The notes beneath the pieces were generated by a model. It was not told where the DNA came from. It saw only the letters and a list, made by a program, of their open reading frames with translations, and did no database searches. Below are positions 1,389 to 13,968 of a stretch of 64,000 nucleotides of DNA, piece by piece; the stretch's first letter is position 1; each line of letters begins with the position of its first letter. Position numbers and translations under genes: made by a program. Origin of the DNA: Aliikangiella marina (lineage in GTDB: Bacteria; Pseudomonadota; Gammaproteobacteria; Enterobacterales; Kangiellaceae); the NCBI RefSeq assembly GCF_007004765.1, contig NZ_VIKR01000006.1:124001-188000 (forward strand). Direction: 5' to 3'.

Positions 1389-2684
1389 TCATAACAGCTG
1401 ATTAAAACGACTTTCTAACTCGTCAAGTAATAGATTAGCACAGGCTCCAGGCGATGTTCTTTGGGTAAGTGAGTCCATTGGTAAGCGGTCAGCGAGGTTT
1501 TTCTTCAAATCGTTGGCGGATTGATAAGCTTCTCTAAACGGTATGCCCTTTATACTCTGTTCCGTAGCTAGGTCCGTTGCATACATTGGTGCATCTATCG
1601 CTTTTTCAAGGACGTCTGCTTTGAAAGACATTTCTGATACGACTTTGGAAAAAAGTTTAATTGTATCCAGCGCAACTTTTAGGCCTTTTAATAAAGGCGG
1701 TTTAGTGAGTTGCAGATCTCTTTGATATCCCGACGGTAACGATAGGATTGATTGCAGCTCAACCATCGCCCCCTGTAATGTCGCATAACTACCTCGCATT
1801 AACTCAATGAGATCCGGATTCCTTTTATTTGGCATGATAGAACTACCTGTAGTCATATTGTCTGGCAAGTTGACAAAGTTAAATTCTTGAGAGGTGAATA
1901 AAGAGAGGTCCCAACAGAATCGCCTGATATCTAGCAAACATTGCGACAATCTAAATAAGGCCTCCAGTTCGAATTTACCGCGACTATTTTGAGTATAAAT
2001 GGGATTGATTTGTAATCGAGAGAAATCGAGCTCGTTGGTTGTTAGCTCCCTGTCAAGTGGAAGGTTGACTCCATAACCGGCCGCGGTTCCTAAAGGATTC
2101 GCATCTAATAGCTGCAGACTAAATTGTAAGCTCATCAAGTTATCAATCATTGCTTCCGCGAAACCGGCAAACCACATTCCAGCAGAAGAAGGAACCGCTC
2201 GTTGTAGATGAGTGTAACCGGGCATTGGTATATCTTTTGTTAATTTTGCTTGTGCGAGGCAAGCTCTCACTGCACTGACAATATAGTCCTCTGCTTGCTT
2301 TAAGCTGTGCTTGATCAATAGTCTGGTAGCAACTGACACTTGATCATTTCTAGAGCGCCCGGTATGAATTTTTTTACCTAGATCTCCGAGTTTTTCGACT
2401 AAATAGTACTCGATAGCTGAGTGGCCATCTTCAAACTGGTTCGATAAGTGAAATACGCCTTGATTGTAGTCATGCGCTAACTCGTCGAGTGCTTGAATTA
2501 GCGAGTCAGCTTCACCCTTATCTAAGATTGTGATGGAATTAAGTCCCTTCACGTGCGCTTTACTCGCTTGAATATCAAAAAGAAAAATTTGGTTGTCGAG
2601 TAGAATGTCTTCGCCCGCCATATAGTTCATAATTTCATTGTCTACCGAAGCTTGTGATTGTTTTTGCCAAATAGGGGCCGTCAT
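1389..2684 (-). CDS. argH: Argininosuccinate lyase
   Basis: Cytosolic enzyme for the last step of arginine synthesis, splitting argininosuccinate into arginine and fumarate. It belongs to the fumarase/aspartase superfamily, whose signature is visible at residues 280-290 (TGSSIMPNKRNP). The catalytic-histidine motif GYTHLQ lies near residue 157-161, and the early HTGRSRNDQ motif lies at about 107-115. At 431 residues it is shorter than the E. coli enzyme (457) and close to the Xanthomonas type. Its ATG overlaps the argC stop by 4 bp, which indicates translational coupling as the last gene of the argF'-argG-argE'-argBA-argC-argH operon. Confidence 0.95.
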   Translation of the reverse strand: MTAPIWQKQSQASVDNEIMNYMAGEDILLDNQIFLFDIQASKAHVKGLNSITILDKGEADSLIQALDELAHDYNQGVFHLSNQFEDGHSAIEYYLVEKLGDLGKKIHTGRSRNDQVSVATRLLIKHSLKQAEDYIVSAVRACLAQAKLTKDIPMPGYTHLQRAVPSSAGMWFAGFAEAMIDNLMSLQFSLQLLDANPLGTAAGYGVNLPLDRELTTNELDFSRLQINPIYTQNSRGKFELEALFRLSQCLLDIRRFCWDLSLFTSQEFNFVNLPDNMTTGSSIMPNKRNPDLIELMRGSYATLQGAMVELQSILSLPSGYQRDLQLTKPPLLKGLKVALDTIKLFSKVVSEMSFKADVLEKAIDAPMYATDLATEQSIKGIPFREAYQSANDLKKNLADRLPMDSLTQRTSPGACANLLLDELESRFNQLL

Positions 2685-3766
2685 ACTGCTTCTCCTTTTA
2701 ATTGTGCCTGCAGATCGGCTTCAGCTAATAGTGGGTTGAACTCTTCAATCTCAATTAAACCGAAGGCAGGATTGAGTCCCAGTGCAATATTGATATTTTG
2801 GACCGCTTGACTCGCTGCGCCCTTAAGTAAGTTATCGAGTACAGAAATAATAGTAGCTCGTTTACCATCCTGCGATAACTGCAGTCCTCCGATGATACAA
2901 TTACTCGTTCTTGAAACTTGTTGAATTGTTGGAATATCGTCACAGATTTTAACGAGTGGATGCATTGCATAATAGTCTTTTAGTCGGGTTTGCAAGCTCT
3001 GATAAAATTGCTTTTTTGAAAAATTAAGTTGGATAGTCATACTGATGCCCCTAAAAAAATCGGCGACGTGCGGAGAAAAACTAACTGGTATGTTTAAATG
3101 GTGTGAAACTTCTTTTTCGTGAAGATGCTCAATACTTTTATAGGGAATAATATTGTCTTTTAAATTATGAGGATCATTGGTCGCACTAGGCTTAGTGCCT
3201 GCGCCGCTATAACCCGAAATGCCAAAACAATTAACGGGTGCAACGAGCAGATCCTTGAGAGGCTCTATCGCTAGTTGCATAGCGGTTGCGTAGCAGCCAG
3301 GGTTGCTTATTTTTATTGGTTTATCTTTGACTCCACCTTGTTTAAAGTTGTTGATCTCAGGAACCGAGTAATTCCACTCAGTATCGAACCGATAGTCTGC
3401 TGAAAGATCGATTATCACTTCAACGGTTGAATTGTTTTTAAGGTTGTCCACGAATAATTCTGCTAGACCGTTTGGTAACGCTAGAATAACTATCTCTGTG
3501 GATATATCGGCAATCTGCTCTGGCTCGAGCGCTTTAATTTCAATGGTACTTTTGGTATCCATGTGTTCATTAATACGACTACCTTGCAGCTGTCGAGAGC
3601 TTAGCCACGATAATTCTAGTAGAGGATGGTTCTCTATCAAGCGAACCAGTTCCTTACCGACATATCCGCGTACACCAAGAATACCCACCGAGTACTTCTT
3701 GTTTTTATTGCTTTGATAGTTTTTGGAAAGTGATTTAATAAGTTTTCCAAAATTAACTTTATTCAT
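2681..3766 (-). CDS. argC: N-acetyl-gamma-glutamyl-phosphate reductase
   Basis: NADPH-dependent reduction of N-acetylglutamyl phosphate to N-acetylglutamate semialdehyde, the third step of arginine synthesis. The Rossmann start GVRGYVG lies at residues 31-37 and the active-site cysteine in NPGCYATA is at residue 158. The N-terminus (about 25 residues, Lys/Asn-rich) is longer than usual before the Rossmann fold, and a later start near the KKYSVGILG segment cannot be excluded. It lies 28 bp downstream of argBA and overlaps argH by 4 bp, inside the arginine operon. Confidence 0.95.
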   Translation of the reverse strand: MNKVNFGKLIKSLSKNYQSNKNKKYSVGILGVRGYVGKELVRLIENHPLLELSWLSSRQLQGSRINEHMDTKSTIEIKALEPEQIADISTEIVILALPNGLAELFVDNLKNNSTVEVIIDLSADYRFDTEWNYSVPEINNFKQGGVKDKPIKISNPGCYATAMQLAIEPLKDLLVAPVNCFGISGYSGAGTKPSATNDPHNLKDNIIPYKSIEHLHEKEVSHHLNIPVSFSPHVADFFRGISMTIQLNFSKKQFYQSLQTRLKDYYAMHPLVKICDDIPTIQQVSRTSNCIIGGLQLSQDGKRATIISVLDNLLKGAASQAVQNINIALGLNPAFGLIEIEEFNPLLAEADLQAQLKGEAV

Positions 3767-3794: not shown

Positions 3795-5153
3795 TTAATT
3801 CAAAGTTGCTGCTTTATTATTGGCAGCATTAATACATTGTTCGATTTGCGCGAAATCATTGAGACCATACCAATAGATATTCCAGTCTTTACTCTTCATA
3901 TGACCGTGAGCTTTTTTAAAGTAAAACTGATTGATAGGATTATCGGGTTTAGCGCGCCAGTAAATAGCGGGAAGCGATTGGACCATTTTTTCCCAGACGG
4001 CTTTGCCCAAACCTTCGCCCTTTGCCGAGTCATCAACAACAAACTTATCTAAAAATGGTATTCCGTCTTCGATAGTCACAATTGCGGCAGCGCGATAGCA
4101 ATAAGTGACAAATGCTTTATGAACCTTTAACTTCTCAAAGTAGTCATTATCGAGTTGTTTTTTAAAACTACTCTCTAGTAGGGCTTTAAGTTTCTTGGTT
4201 TTTATTGTTTCAACTGATTCATGTGTCATTATTGACTCGCCGCGTCTTAGTAGCGTACCTGAACCTTTATGAGTGAACAGTTCTTTGGCTAAATGGGCCG
4301 GGGTTGTGATTGATACTGAAGCGGTAGAAGGTAGCTGACTCAGTATTTCTGCAATTTGCTTGACTTTTAGTTTCATCCCGCTGTGTAGCCAGGGCTGTGC
4401 GATAAGTTCGCTGTAATCGGTGACCAAATTAATTGAAGAGATGACTTTATTTTTCTCATTTAAAATACCACCGGTTTGAGTGAGAAAAATTATTTTATAA
4501 GGCTCGATCGCAATGGCGAGTTGGTTAGTGGCATTATCTGCGTTAACATTCAGCACTTGTCCTGTTTCTGTTTCTGCGAGCGAGGAGAGAATCGGAATTG
4601 CGCCACTCTCTATTGCTGATTTGATCGGTTCTAGGTCGATATTGTTGATTTCACCGACTAATCCTAGCTGCTCTTGTGATGATTGTTTCGCATAAAACAC
4701 GCCCGATGTAATCGAAGCTGTTTTGACACCTAAAGCTTGAAGTTTATTCGCGAGTTTGAGGTTTTGTTGGATAAATGTTTTCTTAGCAACAGATAAAACT
4801 TCAGGAGTTGTGATTCGTTGGCCATCAACAAACTCACTGGTAATCGATTTTTGAGCTAAGTTTTTAGATAACTGTGGGCCTGCGCCGTGAATCACGATAG
4901 GAAAGAGTCCTATTTGCTCAAGAAAAGCCAGAGATGAGCATAAGTTATCTAAGTCGTTATCTAATATTGCGCCACCAACTTTAATGACAGCAAAATGAGT
5001 TTTTCCGGCGTCAACAAAACGGTCAAGATATTGCTGTATTTCTTTGGGGTTTGCGAGATTAGCGAGCAACTGAATTATGGTTTCTTTTACCTTAGGCTTG
5101 AAGCTTGTTGGTGACTGAGTCGAGAGCGCTAAATTTGATTTTAATTGATTCAT
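3795..5153 (-). CDS. argBA: Bifunctional N-acetylglutamate kinase/synthase (fused ArgB-ArgA type)
   Basis: A two-domain protein of 452 residues. The N-terminal amino-acid-kinase domain (about 50-290) carries KVGGAIL and VIHGAGPQLS, the nucleotide/substrate loops of N-acetylglutamate kinase. The C-terminal part (about 300-450) is a NAT domain resembling that of vertebrate-like NAGS/K, with DSAKGEGLGKAVWEKM matching the acetyl-CoA pyrophosphate loop. The length and order match the Xanthomonas bifunctional NAGS/K (about 447 aa, known from that genus). It would therefore carry out both the first (acetyl transfer) and second (phosphorylation) steps. It lies 12 bp from argE' and 28 bp from argC in the arginine operon. 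No separate argA is seen here. Confidence 0.9.
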   Translation of the reverse strand: MNQLKSNLALSTQSPTSFKPKVKETIIQLLANLANPKEIQQYLDRFVDAGKTHFAVIKVGGAILDNDLDNLCSSLAFLEQIGLFPIVIHGAGPQLSKNLAQKSITSEFVDGQRITTPEVLSVAKKTFIQQNLKLANKLQALGVKTASITSGVFYAKQSSQEQLGLVGEINNIDLEPIKSAIESGAIPILSSLAETETGQVLNVNADNATNQLAIAIEPYKIIFLTQTGGILNEKNKVISSINLVTDYSELIAQPWLHSGMKLKVKQIAEILSQLPSTASVSITTPAHLAKELFTHKGSGTLLRRGESIMTHESVETIKTKKLKALLESSFKKQLDNDYFEKLKVHKAFVTYCYRAAAIVTIEDGIPFLDKFVVDDSAKGEGLGKAVWEKMVQSLPAIYWRAKPDNPINQFYFKKAHGHMKSKDWNIYWYGLNDFAQIEQCINAANNKAATLN

Positions 5154-5165
5154 GATAAGGACCCC

Positions 5166-6299
5166 TTAAAGTTTGAAGCTATTATCGGAAAGTTTATTCA
5201 ATATATTGATATAGCTATTTTCCACTGCTAAGAGCTGATCGAGTGCTACCCATTCATCGGCGGTATGTGCTTGTTCAATATTCCCGGGACCATAAACAAT
5301 TGCTGTCGCACCGGATTGTGAGAATAAACTTGCTTCGGTCCAAAAATTGACAGGACTAGCCGTCGATAATCCTAGTGAAGTCGAGAGCTTTTCAGCATTT
5401 CGATGCGCCTCATCAAAGTTTTGATTAGCGGCAGGAAGAGAAGGGCCGTTGAAGCCTTTTTTAATAGCAACTGGATACTGTTGCTCATCGGATAATATGC
5501 CTTTTGCCAAGAAATCGAGTAGTTCGTCTTCGCTTTGTCCTGGTAAAGGTCTAAATCCAAACTTTAAACTTGATTCAGCTGCGATCATATTCGCTTTGAT
5601 GCCGCCCGAAATCGTTCCGACATTAAAGGGAAGCCCAATCAAAGACTTAAATTGATAGTTTTGCTGATTGATCCATTCTATCGATTTAGATATCCAGCTT
5701 GCGGCACGATGGATTGCGTTATCATTATGAGCTCTTAATTCTGATGCATGACCAGGTTTGCCAGTAAAGGTTGCTTCTGCAGTTTGAATCCCACGGTGTG
5801 CGGTGATTGCCTTTGCTTGGGTTGGCTCAGCAACAACAACTTGTTTAAAACCTTTGTTTCCTGCAAGGAATGCTTTAACTGCCTCGCTTGAACCATGCTC
5901 TTCATCGGATGAAAAAAGTAGCGCAACGTCACCAGGGGCTCGATTAACAGCTGTTAGCATACACGCTGATGCACCTTTGATATCGCATGCGCCGAGACCG
6001 GTTGCTGTTTCTTGCGAAACCTCTAGCGTGAATGGATCTTTAGACCAACCATTTGTTATCGGTACCGTATCAATATGAAAGTTAAACAATAGCTGCGGTT
6101 GACCTCTTTGGGCAAGAAGACAGATGCTACCGTTTCCCGCGTCAATAAACTCAAATTGGAACCCTTCCAGATTTTTTTTAAGATAATGAAAAATTTCACT
6201 ATCCTGCGTTATTGCCTTCGGTGGGTTTTGCGTATCAAAACTAACCAGCGCAGCCAAGTGTCCAAGTGTTGTCGACAAAATATTTTGATTATTTTTCAT
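5166..6299 (-). CDS. argE': N-acetyl-L-citrulline deacetylase (ArgE-type M20 peptidase)
   Basis: M20-family zinc hydrolase of 377 residues. Metal-site motifs are FNFHIDTVP (about residues 73-81), LGACDIKGA (about 106-114) and FSSDEEHGSSEA (about 128-139, with the catalytic Glu pair). By itself the sequence fits acetylornithine deacetylase. Because it sits two genes from an N-acetylornithine carbamoyltransferase, the inferred substrate is N-acetylcitrulline, as in Xanthomonas, giving citrulline for ArgG. Its ATG overlaps the argG stop by 4 bp. The substrate choice is an inference from the operon, not from a diagnostic residue. Confidence 0.88.
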   Translation of the reverse strand: MKNNQNILSTTLGHLAALVSFDTQNPPKAITQDSEIFHYLKKNLEGFQFEFIDAGNGSICLLAQRGQPQLLFNFHIDTVPITNGWSKDPFTLEVSQETATGLGACDIKGASACMLTAVNRAPGDVALLFSSDEEHGSSEAVKAFLAGNKGFKQVVVAEPTQAKAITAHRGIQTAEATFTGKPGHASELRAHNDNAIHRAASWISKSIEWINQQNYQFKSLIGLPFNVGTISGGIKANMIAAESSLKFGFRPLPGQSEDELLDFLAKGILSDEQQYPVAIKKGFNGPSLPAANQNFDEAHRNAEKLSTSLGLSTASPVNFWTEASLFSQSGATAIVYGPGNIEQAHTADEWVALDQLLAVENSYINILNKLSDNSFKL

Positions 6300-7582
6300 G
6301 ATGCTTTCTCTACCAGTTTCGACTCGCTGGCATCAGGTTCGGCGCAGTTTACATTCGATTGGTCGATTAAATGTTGATTAGCGGCCATAGTTGAAGACTT
6401 ACCAAATAGCTTGATGAATCCTTGTGCCTCTTCGATGTTCCAATTGGCCGACTGAGCATAGATTGATTGTTTATCTTTGAGAATGTTTGGCGAGGTGATC
6501 GCTACTGCCTGTGCTTGTCCATTACTTAATAATAATGTTACTTCTCCAGAGACTTGTTTTTGCGATGAGTTTAGAAAAGCTTCAAGATCCATTTTGAGTG
6601 GGTCGTAGAAAAATCCCTCATAAACAAGTTCAGTCCATTTTTGCGCGACTTGTGTTTTAAAACGATTTTGTGCTTTTGACAGTATAGCTTGCTCAAGTGC
6701 TGTATGTGCAATGTTGAGACAATGCAATGCGGGCGCTTCAAAAACAATTCGCCCCTTTAAACCTATAGTGGTGTCGCCCGTGTAAATTCCTCTACCAATC
6801 GCCAGTTTCCCGCCAATTTGATTAAGTCGTTGAACAGCGTGTTCGCCGGTGAAGCTCTCATCGAGGCAGTTTTTATTAATCGCGACAACTTCACCGTGTA
6901 AGAATTGAATCGTCACAAATTCATCAACAGAATCAACTTGACTAGGGGGAGTTGTCAACACATAGCTCGCTTCGCCCGGTGATTGCCACTCATCGATTTC
7001 CGAACCAGAGATCGTTGCGCCCAGCAAGTTTTCATTAATTGAATACTTGCTCACTTTGTCTGATACATCGAACCCTTTTTCAATCAGATACTGCTTTTCA
7101 TATTCTCTTACTTGTTGGGTATGCTTTTGAATTTCTCTGATAGGCGAGATGATTGTATAGTCACCGAGTGACTGGACCGCCAGATCAAATCTCACCTGAT
7201 CATTACCCATCCCCGTACAACCATGAGCAAAGTATTGAGTACCTAACTGATCGCAGAGTTTTAAACACGCTTCAACGATTAAGTAACGATCAGAGCACAA
7301 TAACGGATATTGATTTTGGTACCAGTAGCCAGCCTTAACCATCGGAGTGATGACTTGTTGCCAAAGTGCTTGGCCAATATTGACCTGATGGTGTTGGATT
7401 GCACCTAAGGACAATGCTCTCTTTTCTATTTGTTGTTTATCGGTGCTCGAGATCCCGCCTGAGTCTACAAAAATGGTATGTACAACATACCCGGCTTCGA
7501 TTAGATAAGGGACACAAAAGCTGGTATCGAGTCCACCCGAGAAAGCAAGAACAATGAGTTTTTGTTGTGACGATTGATTCAT
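6296..7582 (-). CDS. argG: Argininosuccinate synthase
   Basis: ATP-dependent joining of citrulline and aspartate to argininosuccinate. The N-type ATP-pyrophosphatase P-loop AFSGGLDTS is at residues 13-21. Other conserved blocks are YFAHGCTGMGNDQVRF (about 116-131), SINENLLG (about 181-188) and GRGIYTGDTTIGLKGR (about 271-286). At 428 residues it is about 25-30 longer than the usual bacterial protein. The extra length is a polar C-terminal tail that does not resemble the family. Second gene of the arginine operon, 20 bp after argF'. Confidence 0.95.
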   Translation of the reverse strand: MNQSSQQKLIVLAFSGGLDTSFCVPYLIEAGYVVHTIFVDSGGISSTDKQQIEKRALSLGAIQHHQVNIGQALWQQVITPMVKAGYWYQNQYPLLCSDRYLIVEACLKLCDQLGTQYFAHGCTGMGNDQVRFDLAVQSLGDYTIISPIREIQKHTQQVREYEKQYLIEKGFDVSDKVSKYSINENLLGATISGSEIDEWQSPGEASYVLTTPPSQVDSVDEFVTIQFLHGEVVAINKNCLDESFTGEHAVQRLNQIGGKLAIGRGIYTGDTTIGLKGRIVFEAPALHCLNIAHTALEQAILSKAQNRFKTQVAQKWTELVYEGFFYDPLKMDLEAFLNSSQKQVSGEVTLLLSNGQAQAVAITSPNILKDKQSIYAQSANWNIEEAQGFIKLFGKSSTMAANQHLIDQSNVNCAEPDASESKLVEKAS

Positions 7583-7602: not shown

Positions 7603-8601
7603 TTAGTGTTGAATTAGTTTTTGCATTATGGCTTTTTGTACATGGAGTCGATTTTCAGCTTCGTCGATTGCGAAGCAATAATCAGCATCAAGTACGGCAT
7701 CAGTTGCTTTCACATTTCTTCTCAGTGGTAGGCAATGTGAAAACAAACCTTTTTTAGTAAGTGCCATTTTTTCTTCATCGACAATAAAGTGCTTGTATTG
7801 GTCTCGAATGGATTTTTCTGCTTCCCAGTTACCAAAGTAAGGGAGTGCGCCCCAACTTTTTGCATAAACAATTTGAGCATCTTGATAGGCTTCTTCAATA
7901 TTGTGAGTGATTTGAAAGCTACCGCCGGACGATTCTGCATTCTGTTTTGCCAGCGACAGATATCTTTCATCAAGTAAGTAACTTTCATTGGGACATAACA
8001 AAGTCACATCCATGCCAAACTTTGAAGCAATCAAAAGAGACGAGTTTGCCACGGCTGTATTGAGAGGTTTAGGGTGGTAAGTCCATGTCAGCAAATATTT
8101 CTTTTTCTTTGCTGAACCAAGCTTTTCTTGGATAGCTTGCATGTGGGCTAATTCTTGGCACGGATGAGTAATCGTCTCCATATTCACCACCGGAACAGAC
8201 GCGTACTCTGCGAAAGCTTTGATCACTTTGTCTTGTCTATCGATTTGCCAATCTTCAAATTTTGGGAAAGCTCTAATACAGATCAAATCGCAGTATCTAG
8301 AAAGTACTTTAGCAGCCTCAATGACATGTTCTTCCGCATCTCCTGTCATCTGGGTGCCAAATTCAAATTCAAGGGGCCATGCGCTTTTGCCTGGTTCTAG
8401 TACGACTGCATGGCCACCTAATTGCCAGGTGCCTAACTCAAAAGAAGTTCTAGTGCGTAAACTCGGGTTAAAAAATAGTAGCGCTACCGATTTATTGTGC
8501 AATGCCTGACTCGAAAGGCCTTGTTTAAACTGAGTCGCTAGATCGAGTAAGTCTTGTAACTCTGCCTGGCTCCAGTCTGCAGTTGTAATAAAATTTTTCA
8601 T
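7603..8601 (-). CDS. argF': N-acetylornithine carbamoyltransferase
   Basis: Transfers a carbamoyl group from carbamoyl phosphate to N-acetylornithine, forming N-acetylcitrulline. The carbamoyl-phosphate loop is SLRTRT (residues 47-52) and the HPCQE block is at 146-150. The features that separate this enzyme from ordinary ornithine transcarbamylase are all present and closely resemble Xanthomonas AOTCase: GKSAWPLEFEFG around Trp75, RAFPKFEDW, METITHPCQELAH, LTWTYHPKPLNTAVANS, and the late HCLPLRRNVKATDAV, whose Lys is carboxylated in the Xanthomonas enzyme. Length is 332 versus about 339. First structural gene of the operon, preceded by an arginine-rich leader and terminator. Confidence 0.95.
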   Translation of the reverse strand: MKNFITTADWSQAELQDLLDLATQFKQGLSSQALHNKSVALLFFNPSLRTRTSFELGTWQLGGHAVVLEPGKSAWPLEFEFGTQMTGDAEEHVIEAAKVLSRYCDLICIRAFPKFEDWQIDRQDKVIKAFAEYASVPVVNMETITHPCQELAHMQAIQEKLGSAKKKKYLLTWTYHPKPLNTAVANSSLLIASKFGMDVTLLCPNESYLLDERYLSLAKQNAESSGGSFQITHNIEEAYQDAQIVYAKSWGALPYFGNWEAEKSIRDQYKHFIVDEEKMALTKKGLFSHCLPLRRNVKATDAVLDADYCFAIDEAENRLHVQKAIMQKLIQH

Positions 8602-8645: not shown

Positions 8646-8674
8646 AAAAAACCCGGCGCATTGGCCGGGTTTTT
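8646..8674 (-). terminator. Rho-independent terminator/attenuator before argF'
   Basis: Read on the minus strand this is an A-run, then CCCGGC, a 6-nt loop, GCCGGG and a run of T. It sits between the leader ORF stop (8699) and the argF' ATG (8601). The hairpin can also read on the plus strand, but no plus-strand gene ends here, so its role is taken to be attenuation of the arginine operon. Confidence 0.85.
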
Positions 8675-8698
8675 AGAAGATGGTTTGTTATTTACTCA

Positions 8699-8842
8699 TC
8701 AAACACCATCGCACCCAGCCCAATAGGGACGGCGGCGACGGCGAACAACAGAAGTTTCAAGATTAACAGACACAGAAGAGCGGCTAGCAAGTTGAGCTAG
8801 TTCAATGGTTTCAATTGTTAGATGATTCAGCAATGAATTCAT
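8699..8842 (-). CDS. Arginine-rich leader peptide of the arg operon
   Basis: A 47-codon ORF directly upstream of the attenuator and argF'. It starts MNSLLNHLTIE and contains five consecutive Arg codons (CGC CGT CGC CGC CGT, minus strand, 8743 to 8729), then PYWAGCDGV and a TGA stop. The segment coding for Tyr-Trp-Ala-Gly (ATTGGGCTGGGT, 8724-8713) can pair with ACCCGGCCAAT (8670-8660) in the 5' arm of the terminator. A ribosome stalled on the Arg run would leave that antiterminator segment free. A ribosome reaching the stop would cover it and allow termination. No strong ribosome-binding site precedes the ATG. It is too short for routine gene calling and is inferred to have a regulatory, not an enzymatic, role. 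Confidence 0.8.
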   Translation of the reverse strand: MNSLLNHLTIETIELAQLASRSSVSVNLETSVVRRRRRPYWAGCDGV

Positions 8843-8879
8843 CGGTGTGTGCCATGCTATATTGGAATCGATGCGTTAT

Positions 8880-8908
8880 TAGTAACATAGGCGTTTTCAC
8901 TTTGGCAA
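8880..8908 (-). promoter_or_regulatory. Candidate sigma-70 promoter for the arg leader/operon
   Basis: On the minus strand, TTGCCA (8908-8903), a 17-bp spacer and TTACTA (8885-8880) would start transcription about 30 nt before the leader ATG. No convincing ARG-box pair (ArgR operator) is visible around it. The match is moderate and assigned by eye. Confidence 0.4.
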
Positions 8909-9020: not shown

Positions 9021-9064
9021 TACTCAATGCATGATAAGTCAGCTGTATTGTCAAGGGAGTGACT

Positions 9065-10309
9065 ATGAGCAAATATTCCTACCTAAACCGTGTCAGAGTT
9101 GAAGTCGAGCAACTTAAAGTTGGCATGTATGTGGGAGAATTGGATAAGCCCTGGGAACAAAGCCCGTTTCTTTTTCAAGGGTTTACGATCGAAGATGAGC
9201 TGACTCTTAGCAAGCTGCGTAAAGAATGTTCACATGTATTTGTCGATTTTAAGGATGAACATGAATACGAAAACCATCTATTAGAAACCGAGCAGTCCGC
9301 AGAATCAGATTTTGCTATCGATTCTTCTCTCTCTGAAGAACTACCTAAGGCACTCAAAGTCATCAGAGAGTCTGCCCGAGAGTTGAAATTATTGATGCGC
9401 AAAATTCAACGAGGGGATAATATTCAATTATCAGAGATTGAGATATTGGTTGAGAATTGTCTCGAAAGCTTACATCGCAACAACCGCGCCCTGGTTATTC
9501 TCTGTAATATTAAACACAAAATATTCTACGCGGCAGAGCACCCGCTAAGAGTAGCGATTTTCGCAATGGCGTTTGCAAAACACTTAAAAATGAGTGAACA
9601 ACAACTCGCCGTCATGGGAGCGAGTGCAATGCTTCATGATGTTGGCAAATTTGCTATTCCTGAGCGCGTGCTCAATAAAACCGAAGCGCTGACTAAACAA
9701 GAGAAACTGATGTTGAAGCGACATCCGATTCAAAGTTACAAAATGCTCGATCAAGTCGTTGGAGTAACTGAAGCGGTAAAAGAAGTGGCTTTGTCTCATC
9801 ACGAGCGGGTTGATGGCAAAGGCTATCCCCGGAATATACCCAATGAACGAGTGTCTCGATTTGCCAAAATCGTCTCTATTATTGATACCTACGATGCGGT
9901 GACGAGCGACCGTCCTCATAAAGAAGGAAAATCGCCCAGTTACGCATTTAAAATTCTTAATAATTACAAAGGCTCAAAATTTGATGAATTTTTAGTCAGT
10001 GAATTTATCAAGTGGATGGGAGTAATGCCTGTCGGTTCGTTAGTCGAAATGGCGACGGGTGAAGTCGGCATCGTATTGAAAAACAGCAAGCGCCAAAAAC
10101 TCAGACCTAAAGTTCTACTCGTCACCGATGAACGCAAAAAGCTCGGTTTTGAGAAGGTGGTTGACTTGTCACAAATGGATCTCCATGCGAGTGGAAGAGT
10201 ATATCAAGTGAAATCAGTACTGCCTAACGCTTCGTTTGGCATTAATATCGAGCACTATTTAGATTCGCAATCTTTTGACTCACCTAAGTGGCTCAACCCA
10301 GGGACCTAA
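9065..10309 (+). CDS. HD-GYP domain protein with DUF3391 N-terminus (putative c-di-GMP phosphodiesterase)
   Basis: The N-terminal about 60 residues (RVEVEQLKVGMYVGELDKPW) match the DUF3391 module often fused to HD-GYP. The HD-GYP domain has its HD pair at about residues 191-192 (MLHDVGKFAIP) and the hallmark HHERVDGKGYP at about 245-255, so the catalytic and GYP motifs are intact. It is expected to hydrolyse cyclic di-GMP in the cytosol. A GTG codon six bases earlier is in frame, but AAGGGAG is best spaced for the ATG at 9065. It stands alone, divergent from the arginine operon. Confidence 0.9.
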   Translation: MSKYSYLNRVRVEVEQLKVGMYVGELDKPWEQSPFLFQGFTIEDELTLSKLRKECSHVFVDFKDEHEYENHLLETEQSAESDFAIDSSLSEELPKALKVIRESARELKLLMRKIQRGDNIQLSEIEILVENCLESLHRNNRALVILCNIKHKIFYAAEHPLRVAIFAMAFAKHLKMSEQQLAVMGASAMLHDVGKFAIPERVLNKTEALTKQEKLMLKRHPIQSYKMLDQVVGVTEAVKEVALSHHERVDGKGYPRNIPNERVSRFAKIVSIIDTYDAVTSDRPHKEGKSPSYAFKILNNYKGSKFDEFLVSEFIKWMGVMPVGSLVEMATGEVGIVLKNSKRQKLRPKVLLVTDERKKLGFEKVVDLSQMDLHASGRVYQVKSVLPNASFGINIEHYLDSQSFDSPKWLNPGT

Positions 10310-11036: not shown

Positions 11037-11375
11037 TTAACGAAACAGTTCATCTGTTTTAGCTGCACAGATAAAATCGTTCTTATGTAAGCCTTTGATC
11101 TTATGGGTCCACCAGGTAACGGTAACTTTACCCCATTCAGTGGTGAGTGCTGGGTGGTGGTTTTCCGCTTCCGCCATATCCCCGACGCGATTTGTGAAGG
11201 CGATAGCTTCAGCAAAATTTTTAAATTTATAAATTCGTTTAAGCTGCATAATATTATTTTTAACTTCAACGACCCAGTCTGGGATTTGTTTGATGAGAGT
11301 AGCCAATTCTTCTTCTGATACTTTGGGCGCGCCAGCTTGGCAGGCTTCACATTGCTGACGGGTTAATTCTGTCAT
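11037..11375 (-). CDS. phhB: Pterin-4a-carbinolamine dehydratase
   Basis: Dehydrates 4a-hydroxytetrahydropterin produced by phenylalanine hydroxylase so that the cofactor can be recycled. The active-site motif [22 protein letters not shown] is cleanly present in the middle, then [10 protein letters not shown], as in the DCoH/PhhB family (about 112 residues, normal). Two in-frame ATGs six bases apart exist; AGGA is spaced correctly for the second, so the start is placed at 11375. It lies 57 bp after phhA on the same strand, so the two probably form a phhAB operon. Confidence 0.93.
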
Positions 11376-11432
11376 TGTCATTCCTTAGTGTTGGTTTGTT
11401 AATCATTTAATGTCTAATACGTTACAGCCTGG

Positions 11433-12257
11433 TTAACAGGCTGCGTTTTCTTTTGGTAAATAATCTGATGGCTTCATCCCTAGCTTTTTCGCTTGGCTGA
11501 TTAACAATGTTAAATCGAGCTTAATAATGTTTTGCAACTCAGCTAGCGAGTCAATTATAAAGTAGTTCTTTTGTAATTGATCGATTCTGTAATGAGTGCG
11601 AAACGCATCTAAGATATCCAGCGATTGTCGGTTAGGAATGTCGCTCTCTAAGCTGTATACGGTTTCCTCTTTTGAAGATAAAATTCCTCCACCATAGACT
11701 TTTAGTCCTTGATCGGATTTTACCAATCCGAACTCAATAGTGAACCAGTATAGCCGCGCAAGCATCGCTCGTTCCTCTTTAGTCGCATTTAATCCAAGTA
11801 TGCCATAGTGCTGAGAAAAGTCAGCGTAAGCTTGATTAGTCAGTAATGGACAGTGGCCGAACAGCTCATGAAAAATATCAGGTTCTTTAATATAGTCTAA
11901 ATCTTCACGACGCCGAATAAACGTGGCGGCGGGGAATCTGCGGTTAGCCAACAGTTCGAAGAAGCGCTCAAAGCCGATGAGTGCAGGGACTCGCTCGACT
12001 TGCCAGCCTGTCATATTCTCAAGCTTATCGTTGATATCTGGCAATTGAGGAATGCTTTGGGCACCCATGTCTAGTTTGTCTATTCCTTCCAAAAACTCCG
12101 GGCACGCTCGGTCACGAACAATCTCCATTTGTCGATTATAGAGAATCTCCCAAGTACCATTCTCCTCAGGGGTATAGTCAATGTAACCGTGTTCGTCAGG
12201 AACCTTCGAAACATAAGCCTTGGGATCGGATATTGACAAATTTGCACCGGTTTTCAT
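11433..12257 (-). CDS. phhA: Phenylalanine 4-monooxygenase
   Basis: Pterin- and iron-dependent conversion of phenylalanine to tyrosine. Iron ligands are visible as His130 and His135 (DIFHELFGHCP) and Glu175 (FTIEFGLV). At 274 residues it is the short bacterial form without the regulatory ACT domain of animals. phhB follows on the same strand. A MocR-type regulator is divergently encoded, with several CTGTAC-like sites in the shared intergenic region, so local regulation of phenylalanine catabolism is likely. Confidence 0.95.
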   Translation of the reverse strand: MKTGANLSISDPKAYVSKVPDEHGYIDYTPEENGTWEILYNRQMEIVRDRACPEFLEGIDKLDMGAQSIPQLPDINDKLENMTGWQVERVPALIGFERFFELLANRRFPAATFIRRREDLDYIKEPDIFHELFGHCPLLTNQAYADFSQHYGILGLNATKEERAMLARLYWFTIEFGLVKSDQGLKVYGGGILSSKEETVYSLESDIPNRQSLDILDAFRTHYRIDQLQKNYFIIDSLAELQNIIKLDLTLLISQAKKLGMKPSDYLPKENAAC

Positions 12258-12534: not shown

Positions 12535-13968
12535 GTGATTAAAACAAAAAAACTATACCAGCAAGTTGCGGATGACTTCCGGGACTTGATTGCCAATGGT
12601 GATTTTCAACCTGGCGAGAAGATTCCTTCAATAAGAAGTATCGCTAAACAGCGTAAAATCAGTATTGCGACAGTCCAACGCTCGCTCGAAGAACTTGAGT
12701 TACGAGGGTTAATAGAAGCCAAACCCAAATCGGGTTTTTATGTAAAAATGCAGGCAAATCCGCGATCTGCGGTAGAAGCAACTTTGCTGCCAATGGTGCC
12801 TAAATCGGTAGAAATACACGAATTTGCTAGCCATATTTTTCATCAATGTGATTCTCCGGATATTGTTAACTTGGGAACAACCTACCCATCGCTAAAATAT
12901 TTTCCTGAAAAATACATTCAACAATTTGCGAGCAAGGTCATTCGACACAATATCAATGATGTGGTTGAAGTTCATTTTTCCCCTGGACAAATGAAGCTGC
13001 GCCAGGTTTTATCTAAGCGATTAAATCAAATGGGCTGCCGAGTTACCGCTGACGATCTGATTATCACTAACGGTTGCTTGGAGGGCCTGTCACTTTGTCT
13101 AAGAGCCGTCGCTAAACCTGGCGATACCATTGCGATAGAGTCTCCGGGATTTGTTGGGCTGTTCCAGTTAATTGAATCGCTCGGTTATAAAGCGATTGAG
13201 ATCCCATGTCACCCGGTTGAAGGAATGAGCTTAGAAGCTTTGGAGCTGGCTCTAGAGCAATGGCCAATTAAAGCAGTGGCTTTAGTACCGACGTTTAGTA
13301 ATCCGCTTGGTACTAATATGCCGGAAAAAAATCGTATGCGACTTGTCGAGTTGTTAGCCGACAAAGAAGTACCATTGATTGAGGATGATTTACTCGGTGA
13401 CCTATCCTTTGATGGTTCGCGAACGCGGCCATGCAAAGCATTTGATAAAAAAGGTTTAGTACTTTATTGCTCTTCAGCGAGTAAAACCGTGGCTTCGGGG
13501 TTGCGCATCGGCTGGCTAGCGCCCGGTGCTTACTATAAGGAAGTTTCTTATTTTAAGACTTTCACGAATATTAGTGCGCCGAACATTACCCAGTTAACCA
13601 TCGCTGAGTTTTTTAAAAGTGGAAAATATGACCGTTACTTGCGGCAGTTCACCGGCGCTTTGGCAAAGCGAATGTACCAATTTCAGCAAGCGATCGAAAA
13701 GTATTTCCCGCAAGGAACACGAATGTCACAACCCCAAGGTGGTTGTATTCTATGGGTGGCGCTGCCGAAAAACTTCAGCGGGTTAGCTGTTTTTGAAGCG
13801 GCAATAAAGTCGGGTATTGCCATTGTTCCTGGTCAGCTTTCAAGTGCAACATCAAAGTTTGACCATTGCATTCGCTTAAACTGTGCATGTGATCCCGAGA
13901 TTGATATCGATTCAGTCATCCAAAAACTGGCGGCGATTATTGAATCAACCCAATTACAGTCCAACTAA
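12535..13968 (+). CDS. MocR-type transcriptional regulator (GntR HTH plus aminotransferase-like domain)
   Basis: Residues 1-70 form a GntR winged helix (YQQVADDFRDLIANGDFQPG, then IPSIRSIAKQRKISIATVQRSLEELELRGLI). Residues about 100-470 are a fold-type I aminotransferase-like domain with FSNPLGT at 254-260 and the PLP lysine in SSASKTVASGLRIGW (Lys317), so cofactor binding is plausible. The start is a GTG with a poor Shine-Dalgarno. It is divergent from phhAB and is probably its regulator, though other MocR proteins control pyridoxal, GABA or taurine genes. No pyridoxine or GABA genes are nearby. Confidence 0.88.
   Translation: MIKTKKLYQQVADDFRDLIANGDFQPGEKIPSIRSIAKQRKISIATVQRSLEELELRGLIEAKPKSGFYVKMQANPRSAVEATLLPMVPKSVEIHEFASHIFHQCDSPDIVNLGTTYPSLKYFPEKYIQQFASKVIRHNINDVVEVHFSPGQMKLRQVLSKRLNQMGCRVTADDLIITNGCLEGLSLCLRAVAKPGDTIAIESPGFVGLFQLIESLGYKAIEIPCHPVEGMSLEALELALEQWPIKAVALVPTFSNPLGTNMPEKNRMRLVELLADKEVPLIEDDLLGDLSFDGSRTRPCKAFDKKGLVLYCSSASKTVASGLRIGWLAPGAYYKEVSYFKTFTNISAPNITQLTIAEFFKSGKYDRYLRQFTGALAKRMYQFQQAIEKYFPQGTRMSQPQGGCILWVALPKNFSGLAVFEAAIKSGIAIVPGQLSSATSKFDHCIRLNCACDPEIDIDSVIQKLAAIIESTQLQSN

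Follow-up and report, generated by a model that had tools for sequence, protein, structure and literature searches.

How does a bacterium that lacks the arginine repressor decide when to make arginine? Repression by ArgR is what textbooks teach for arginine synthesis, and in relatives the pathway is controlled by this protein through ARG boxes. When the Aliikangiella marina genome was searched for ArgR (as PF01316), 0 matches were found, the E. coli positive control being matched, and the operon is not classed as ArgR-regulated. With no ArgR in the genome, the arginine genes call for some other means of control, as an earlier note on this DNA, made from the letters alone, had supposed. The window, that is, the whole stretch of 64,000 nucleotides that was analysed, carries six arginine genes which are probably co-transcribed in the order argF'-argG-argE-argB-argC-argH:

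7603..8601, minus strand: argF', N-acetylornithine carbamoyltransferase (NF003384, 567 bits, cut-off 288)
6296..7582, minus strand: argG, argininosuccinate synthase (TIGR00032 above cut-off; NF003385 594.9 bits, slightly below its cut-off of 603)
5166..6299, minus strand: argE-like deacetylase (NF006439 above cut-off; acetylcitrulline is the presumed substrate)
3795..5153, minus strand: argB, acetylglutamate kinase of the long NF003387 type (profile match)
2681..3766, minus strand: argC (TIGR01850 above cut-off)
1389..2684, minus strand: argH (TIGR00838 above cut-off)

This is the acetylornithine-carbamoyltransferase version of the pathway, known from Xanthomonas, a point that the earlier note had not made; the C-terminal part of the NF003387-type argB product is acetyltransferase-like. 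Elsewhere in the window, ORFs named by eye include a pterin-dehydratase-like one (11037-11381) beside a phenylalanine-hydroxylase-like one (11433-12257), and a GntR/aminotransferase-type regulator-like one (12535-13968).

What, then, lies before argF'? The region is most probably (about 0.9) a ribosome-mediated, cis-acting attenuator of transcription with arginine specificity, as judged from comparative and computed evidence, and the analysis supports the same reading in the earlier note. Attenuators of this type are familiar from the his, trp and leu operons, in which a short leader ORF, rich in consecutive codons for the product amino acid, is followed by mutually exclusive hairpins and by a terminator placed before the first gene. 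The window has the layout of these systems (RF00513 Trp_leader, RF00512 Leu_leader) but differs in its amino acid, arginine. Its parts are the following:

8908-8878, minus strand: promoter-like TTGCCA - 18 nt - TACTAAT, a weak candidate seen by eye
8842-8699, minus strand: leader peptide ORF of 47 codons, reading MNSLLNHLTIETIELAQLASRSSVSVNLETSVVRRRRRPYWAGCDGV, with RRRRR then PYWAGCDGV and the stop codon TGA at 8701-8699
8743-8729, minus strand: five consecutive Arg control codons, CGC CGT CGC CGC CGT, read from the sequence; Arg runs also occur in relatives
8743-8704, minus strand: hairpin 1:2, in which 8743-8735 (Arg codons) pairs with 8712-8704 and encloses region 2 (minimum-energy fold, for the window alone)
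8720-8713, minus strand: core of region 2, GGCTGGGT, 5' strand of the antiterminator (computed fold and covariation)
8710-8705, minus strand: GATGGT, inner antiterminator stem with 8684-8679 or, alternatively, part of hairpin 1:2 (folding)
8684-8679, minus strand: ACCATC, antiterminator partner of 8710-8705 (folding)
8670-8663, minus strand: region 3, ACCCGGCC, whose partner is region 2 or the 3' arm of the terminator (folding and covariation)
8674-8647, minus strand: intrinsic terminator (3:4) of 11 pairs with its T-run, conserved in relatives

The core of region 2 sits within 8724-8713, ATTGGGCTGGGT on the minus strand, the 5' arm of the terminator reads ACCCGGCCAAT at 8670-8660 (minus), and 45 nt separate the end of the terminator from the start of argF'. 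The leader ORF, its Arg run, the YWAG segment and the terminator arm had all been placed exactly by the earlier note. No minus-strand promoter was listed by a consensus scan, and no clear Shine-Dalgarno site was seen at the leader start; the promoter-like motif recurs by eye, with identical spacing, in two other loci (L004 and L012).

The free leader RNA folds with z = -4.3, none of 200 shuffles being equally stable, and its minimum-energy fold combines the Arg-codon hairpin (8743-8735:8712-8704) with the terminator. When RNA 8730-8660 is folded, two helices appear, 8720-8713:8670-8663 (8 bp) and 8710-8705:8684-8679 (6 bp), with z = -2.75 and 2 of 200 shuffles as stable. This antiterminator is incompatible with the terminator and 1:2 helices, as in the his and trp attenuators, and both computed folds agree with the mutually exclusive pair first proposed from the letters. 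That proposal had paired the whole YWAG segment with the terminator arm; the core GGCTGGGT:ACCCGGCC holds, but the ATTGG:CCAAT extension needs a bulge and falls outside the minimum-energy fold. The elements by which an attenuator is recognised are present: an Arg-codon leader ORF, a terminator before the first gene with arg genes downstream, a 1:2 hairpin that includes the control codons (in the window alone), and an antiterminator 3' of these codons that excludes the terminator and shows compensatory changes, few of them independent. Taken singly, some of these elements are ordinary. One terminator-like site is found on the minus strand, which is not above chance alone (shuffles: mean 0.6, sd 0.8), and GC-rich DNA readily yields Arg-rich frames, so that a plain terminator with an accidental Arg-rich frame has to be weighed as an explanation; the nearest upstream gene on the leader side (9059-10309, plus strand), however, is divergent.

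As modelled, the switch would be set by the ribosome. With ample Arg-tRNA, the ribosome would pass the Arg run, reach the stop codon and cover region 2 or, alternatively, would depart and let hairpin 1:2 form; with region 2 occupied, region 3 would pair with region 4 and RNA polymerase would stop at about 8647. With scarce Arg-tRNA, the ribosome would stall on the Arg run and block hairpin 1:2, regions 2 and 3 would pair during the stall, before region 4 is made, and the antiterminator once formed would allow argF'-argG-argE-argB-argC-argH to be transcribed. Stalling, termination and the response to arginine are predictions of this model. Its computed support comes from ensemble folding, in which the RNA was left free to pair beginning 13 nt past the first base of the A-site codon. 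For a ribosome on the best Arg codon the antiterminator has a mean probability of 0.99, versus 0.25 for one on the stop codon, and the antiterminator is likelier in the stalled state in 97 of 97 leaders (repeats included). At equilibrium, the complete window RNA gives the terminator a probability of 1.00 at all five Arg codons, even when stalled, and whole leader RNA often favours the terminator as well. The antiterminator therefore has to be in place before the terminator can form, and it must be the order of synthesis that decides. In three of the four Xanthomonadales-type leaders listed singly (L031, L053 and L113) the stop-codon probability of the antiterminator is 0.62-0.76, so that ribosome masking alone does not explain the OFF state there; the fourth, L059, has 0.31.

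Is this arrangement peculiar to the window? In the window's order, argF' was found above cut-off in 18 of 295 genomes, and an Arg-rich leader with terminator precedes it in 17 of 17 loci with sufficient upstream DNA, the window included. These 18 loci, 8 further ones and 80 among the named-genome matches listed make up the 106 argF' loci read first, 98 of which have an Arg-rich leader and terminator by script (93 genomes, five of them present twice: L003/L107, L004/L048, L015/L040, L016/L042 and L034/L116). For L068 the script chose the wrong ORF, the correct leader being visible in the upstream sequence. Leader hosts include Aliikangiella, Kangiella, Rhodanobacter, Dyella, Frateuria, Luteibacter, Lysobacter, Stenotrophomonas, Pseudoxanthomonas, Tahibacter and Fulvimonas, and the predicted attenuator occurs in both Kangiellaceae and Xanthomonadales. 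The eight leaderless loci comprise two truncated at contig ends (L001, L045), four with an argD-like gene directly upstream, as seen by eye, and with ArgR in the genome (L035-L038), and two from metagenome-assembled genomes (L102, L104). In L043 the leader lies about 340 nt from argF'; the roughly 300 nt between its terminator and the gene (L043:2700-3000) hold, by eye, three near-identical TATCCTAAAAATGCCGGGAGC... units. Another metagenome-assembled genome, G672, has two copies of argF' on two contigs (L045, L047), with the leader inside the contig for one only.

Wider reading extends this distribution. The order of genome G458 is that of Rhodanobacter and Dyella (L173 and L166 share upstream DNA with L060 and L083), and argF' reaches E <= 1e-80 in 108 of its 121 genomes. 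The leader is present in 26 of 26 further loci read in families f39 and f206, and 38 of 43 loci in families f208-f216 pass a looser script, used without false-positive calibration. Among these passes, the wrong ORF was chosen in L179 (the GMTSRARR motif is present in its genome, G694) and L195, L196 and L199 are doubtful; beyond the passes, a leader is seen by eye in L193 and L210, and none in L187, L205 or L207. L211 duplicates L056. In family f217 nothing was found near argF' in the 5 loci read, the loose script giving hits 0.9-1.4 kb from the gene in 3 of them. Such distant hits are what accidental Arg-rich frames would yield, but a strict leader-plus-terminator detector, which finds 98 of 98 positives by construction, is passed by only 5 of 291 dinucleotide shuffles and by 0 of 12 ordinary OTC genes. 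In the window's own genome the arg leader scores 86.1 bits with the R1 model, among 44 matches at E <= 1; the next two matches (35.9 and 34.6 bits) are not Arg leaders, and a weaker second one is possible among the lower matches, the 3 best of the 44 having been inspected.

The switch itself varies in a telling manner. At one position, the bases of regions 3, 2 and 4 read G/C/C in 66 leaders, A/T/T in 21 and G/T/C in 6, with 0 incompatible combinations (93 leaders, 92 contigs); the G/T/C leaders would form a G-U pair in the antiterminator. The G or A of region 3 decides the pairing and regions 2 and 4 follow. On the argF' tree the region 3 base changes five times (L056 was excluded from this count, region 2 was set manually for L004, L041, L061 and L082, and all three states for L068). 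Independent changes of the switch amount to 5 row pairs on the best tree and 2 on well supported branches, and a sign test is non-significant; the independent changes being this few, the argument draws on the pattern as a whole. A second covarying position occurs in L012 and L041, and L200, L204 and L221 have CCAGG or CCGGG with CCTGG instead. Among 19 Kangiellaceae-type leaders (alignment A3; the 43-row alignment A2, with several rows one base off, was set aside), 94.7% of antiterminator cells are paired and 3 of 7 pairs are changed on both sides; for the terminator the figures are 100% and 2 of 9. These counts of doubly changed pairs were matched by 23 of 500 control shuffles for the antiterminator and by 73 of 500 for the terminator, the covariation scores by 8 of 500 and 0 of 500. 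The earlier note had named beforehand what would sink the attenuator reading, namely relatives that had lost the Arg run or the covarying pairing; both are retained, with compensatory changes. As two orders share leader, terminator and switch pairing, with such changes, a coincidental origin is scarcely credible.

Does the attenuator stand in for ArgR? Apparently so. ArgR/ARG-box control relies on a trans-acting protein that is absent from the tested leader-bearing genomes, whereas the switch predicted in the window is cis-acting. Among 61 chosen genomes, ArgR was matched in 0 of 20 further genomes with a leader read and in 4 of 4 argF' genomes without one, in these within about 5 kb of argF'. 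A divergent argF' is seen in L139, L140, L141 and L142, with an argD-like gene directly upstream and ArgR within about 5 kb. No ArgR was matched in G293, whose leader lies past the contig end, nor in 9 additional family genomes with argF' and an R1 leader match, five of which are the contigs of L039, L041, L044, L046 and L047, with leaders read. In genera g3 and g4 of the same family, ArgR was matched in 6 of 6 genomes, none with an argF' above cut-off; sister genera in the window's family retain OTC-type genes together with ArgR. In the order of G458, ArgR is found in 8 of 121 genomes, all of them f217.

Not every ArgR-less genome bears a leader, which opposes a strict link: among genomes without argF', 5 of 5 from Kangiella and 2 of 2 from f13 also lack ArgR, 0 of 5 genomes from class families f28, f34, f36, f41 and f42 have ArgR, and in G664 and G665 no argF', no R1 leader match and no ArgR were found. 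In these Kangiella genomes (G007, G032, G073, G091 and G205) the best argF' match has E 1e-10 to 1e-12, below cut-off; these bacteria are perhaps arginine auxotrophs. The genomes of the five class families suggest that other arginine controls may exist, and one may ask whether the promoter or leader in the window is the target of some arginine regulator that escaped recognition, the leader itself being secondary. We regard such protein-dependent control as very improbable, since the cis elements suffice for a complete attenuator and since the one regulator searched for, ArgR, is missing from a genome in which the search was sound by its E. coli control. For the attenuator, the argF' tree suggests a history: Kangiellaceae-type and Xanthomonadales-type leader groups adjoin, with leaderless L102 and L104 outside (a quick tree with midpoint root). 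The simplest reading is that the operon was transferred with its own switch and that ArgR was lost later. Within one family, a cis-acting RNA would then have taken the place of a repressor, which suggests how these bacteria cope without ArgR.

In Xanthomonadales the leader seems to hold more than Arg codons. Along the argF' tree, the AAGMTSRARR codons of 67 Xanthomonadales-type leaders show 3 changes at positions 1 and 2 against 94 at position 3, whereas all three positions change in the codons 13-20 places upstream of Met. As a DNA pattern, GMTSRARR occurs in 45 of the 121 genomes of the order, once each, in f39, f206, f208 and f209 (reversed control 0), and each instance lies, by eye, less than 250 nt upstream of argF' and on its strand. 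Ala, Gly, Thr and Ser are unneeded by a plain counter of Arg codons, and their conservation points to selection on the peptide. Could the leader then be mainly a nascent-peptide sensor, in which the chain in the exit tunnel, and not only the supply of Arg-tRNA, pauses the ribosome and sets the hairpins, as happens in tnaC and speFL? The conserved residues and the single pattern just upstream of argF' speak for it in the 67 leaders, but several Arg codons are retained throughout, as a plain codon counter requires, and other Xanthomonadales families have different Arg-rich leaders (loose script). What the leaders of Kangiellaceae have in common, that of the window among them, is the Arg run and, usually, an Ala-Gly after it; the remainder varies between genera, and by eye no amino-acid conservation beyond the run was seen in this lineage. 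We therefore hold the sensor to be unlikely as the main mechanism. Somewhat less doubtful, and offered tentatively, is a combined view for Xanthomonadales: AR(M/A)AAGMTSRARRP would be an arginine-related arrest peptide, read by the ribosome or, once released, trans-acting, so that arginine would be sensed by way of the peptide in addition to Arg-tRNA, and operon plus switch would have moved between Xanthomonadales and Kangiellaceae, so that ArgR could be dispensed with. The conserved peptide offers a tangible candidate for a new arrest peptide.

How does the arginine attenuator compare with what is known? T-box leaders bind tRNA directly, without a leader peptide; arginine T-box leaders share RNA-level control with the window, the direct binding of tRNA and the missing leader peptide being on the T-box side. 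Arginine T-box leaders are named in one paper (PMC1262725). According to another, the Pseudomonas aeruginosa carA leader also places a leader peptide before an arginine/pyrimidine gene but differs in being attenuated by pyrimidines, arginine acting at the transcriptional level (PMC4997734), and a survey of proteobacterial attenuators is cited in a third (PMC12508126). The mechanism is known; for its arginine specificity, that is, for an arginine attenuator before an arg operon, no description was found in the open-access literature (PMC), an earlier one being possible. Between 8400 and 9300 no Rfam family reaches its gathering score (Trp_leader 20.9 bits vs 41), and a permissive threshold gave sub-gathering matches only, so that membership in an Rfam leader family was rejected. 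If the attenuator reading is correct, a set of Gammaproteobacteria of at least two orders appears to run arginine synthesis by attenuation that is coupled to translation and goes together with the acetylornithine-carbamoyltransferase pathway, and the pattern gives a rule for annotating leader ORFs that are at present unannotated.

Leaders for other amino acids came to light in the same searches. Of ten non-arg R1 matches inspected, five showed no amino-acid leader, four are hisG-like leaders (45 to 37 bits) and one is probably of leuA type (G264). In Kangiella (L129, L130, L131 and L132), HHHHH or HHHH leaders and a GCCCCGC terminator, found with the R1 model, precede genes that by eye are hisG-like. 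Their build is that of the arg leader, from which they differ in their His codons and in the GCCCCGC terminator arm; three of the four finish with MAG-stop, their last codons containing region 2. In G053, a genome with argF', a histidine leader of this build likewise precedes a hisG-like gene. Finally, in G264 (L135) a probable leucine or branched-chain leader, LLPFLLLFWWGGI-stop, stands with a terminator before a gene that by eye is leuA-like.
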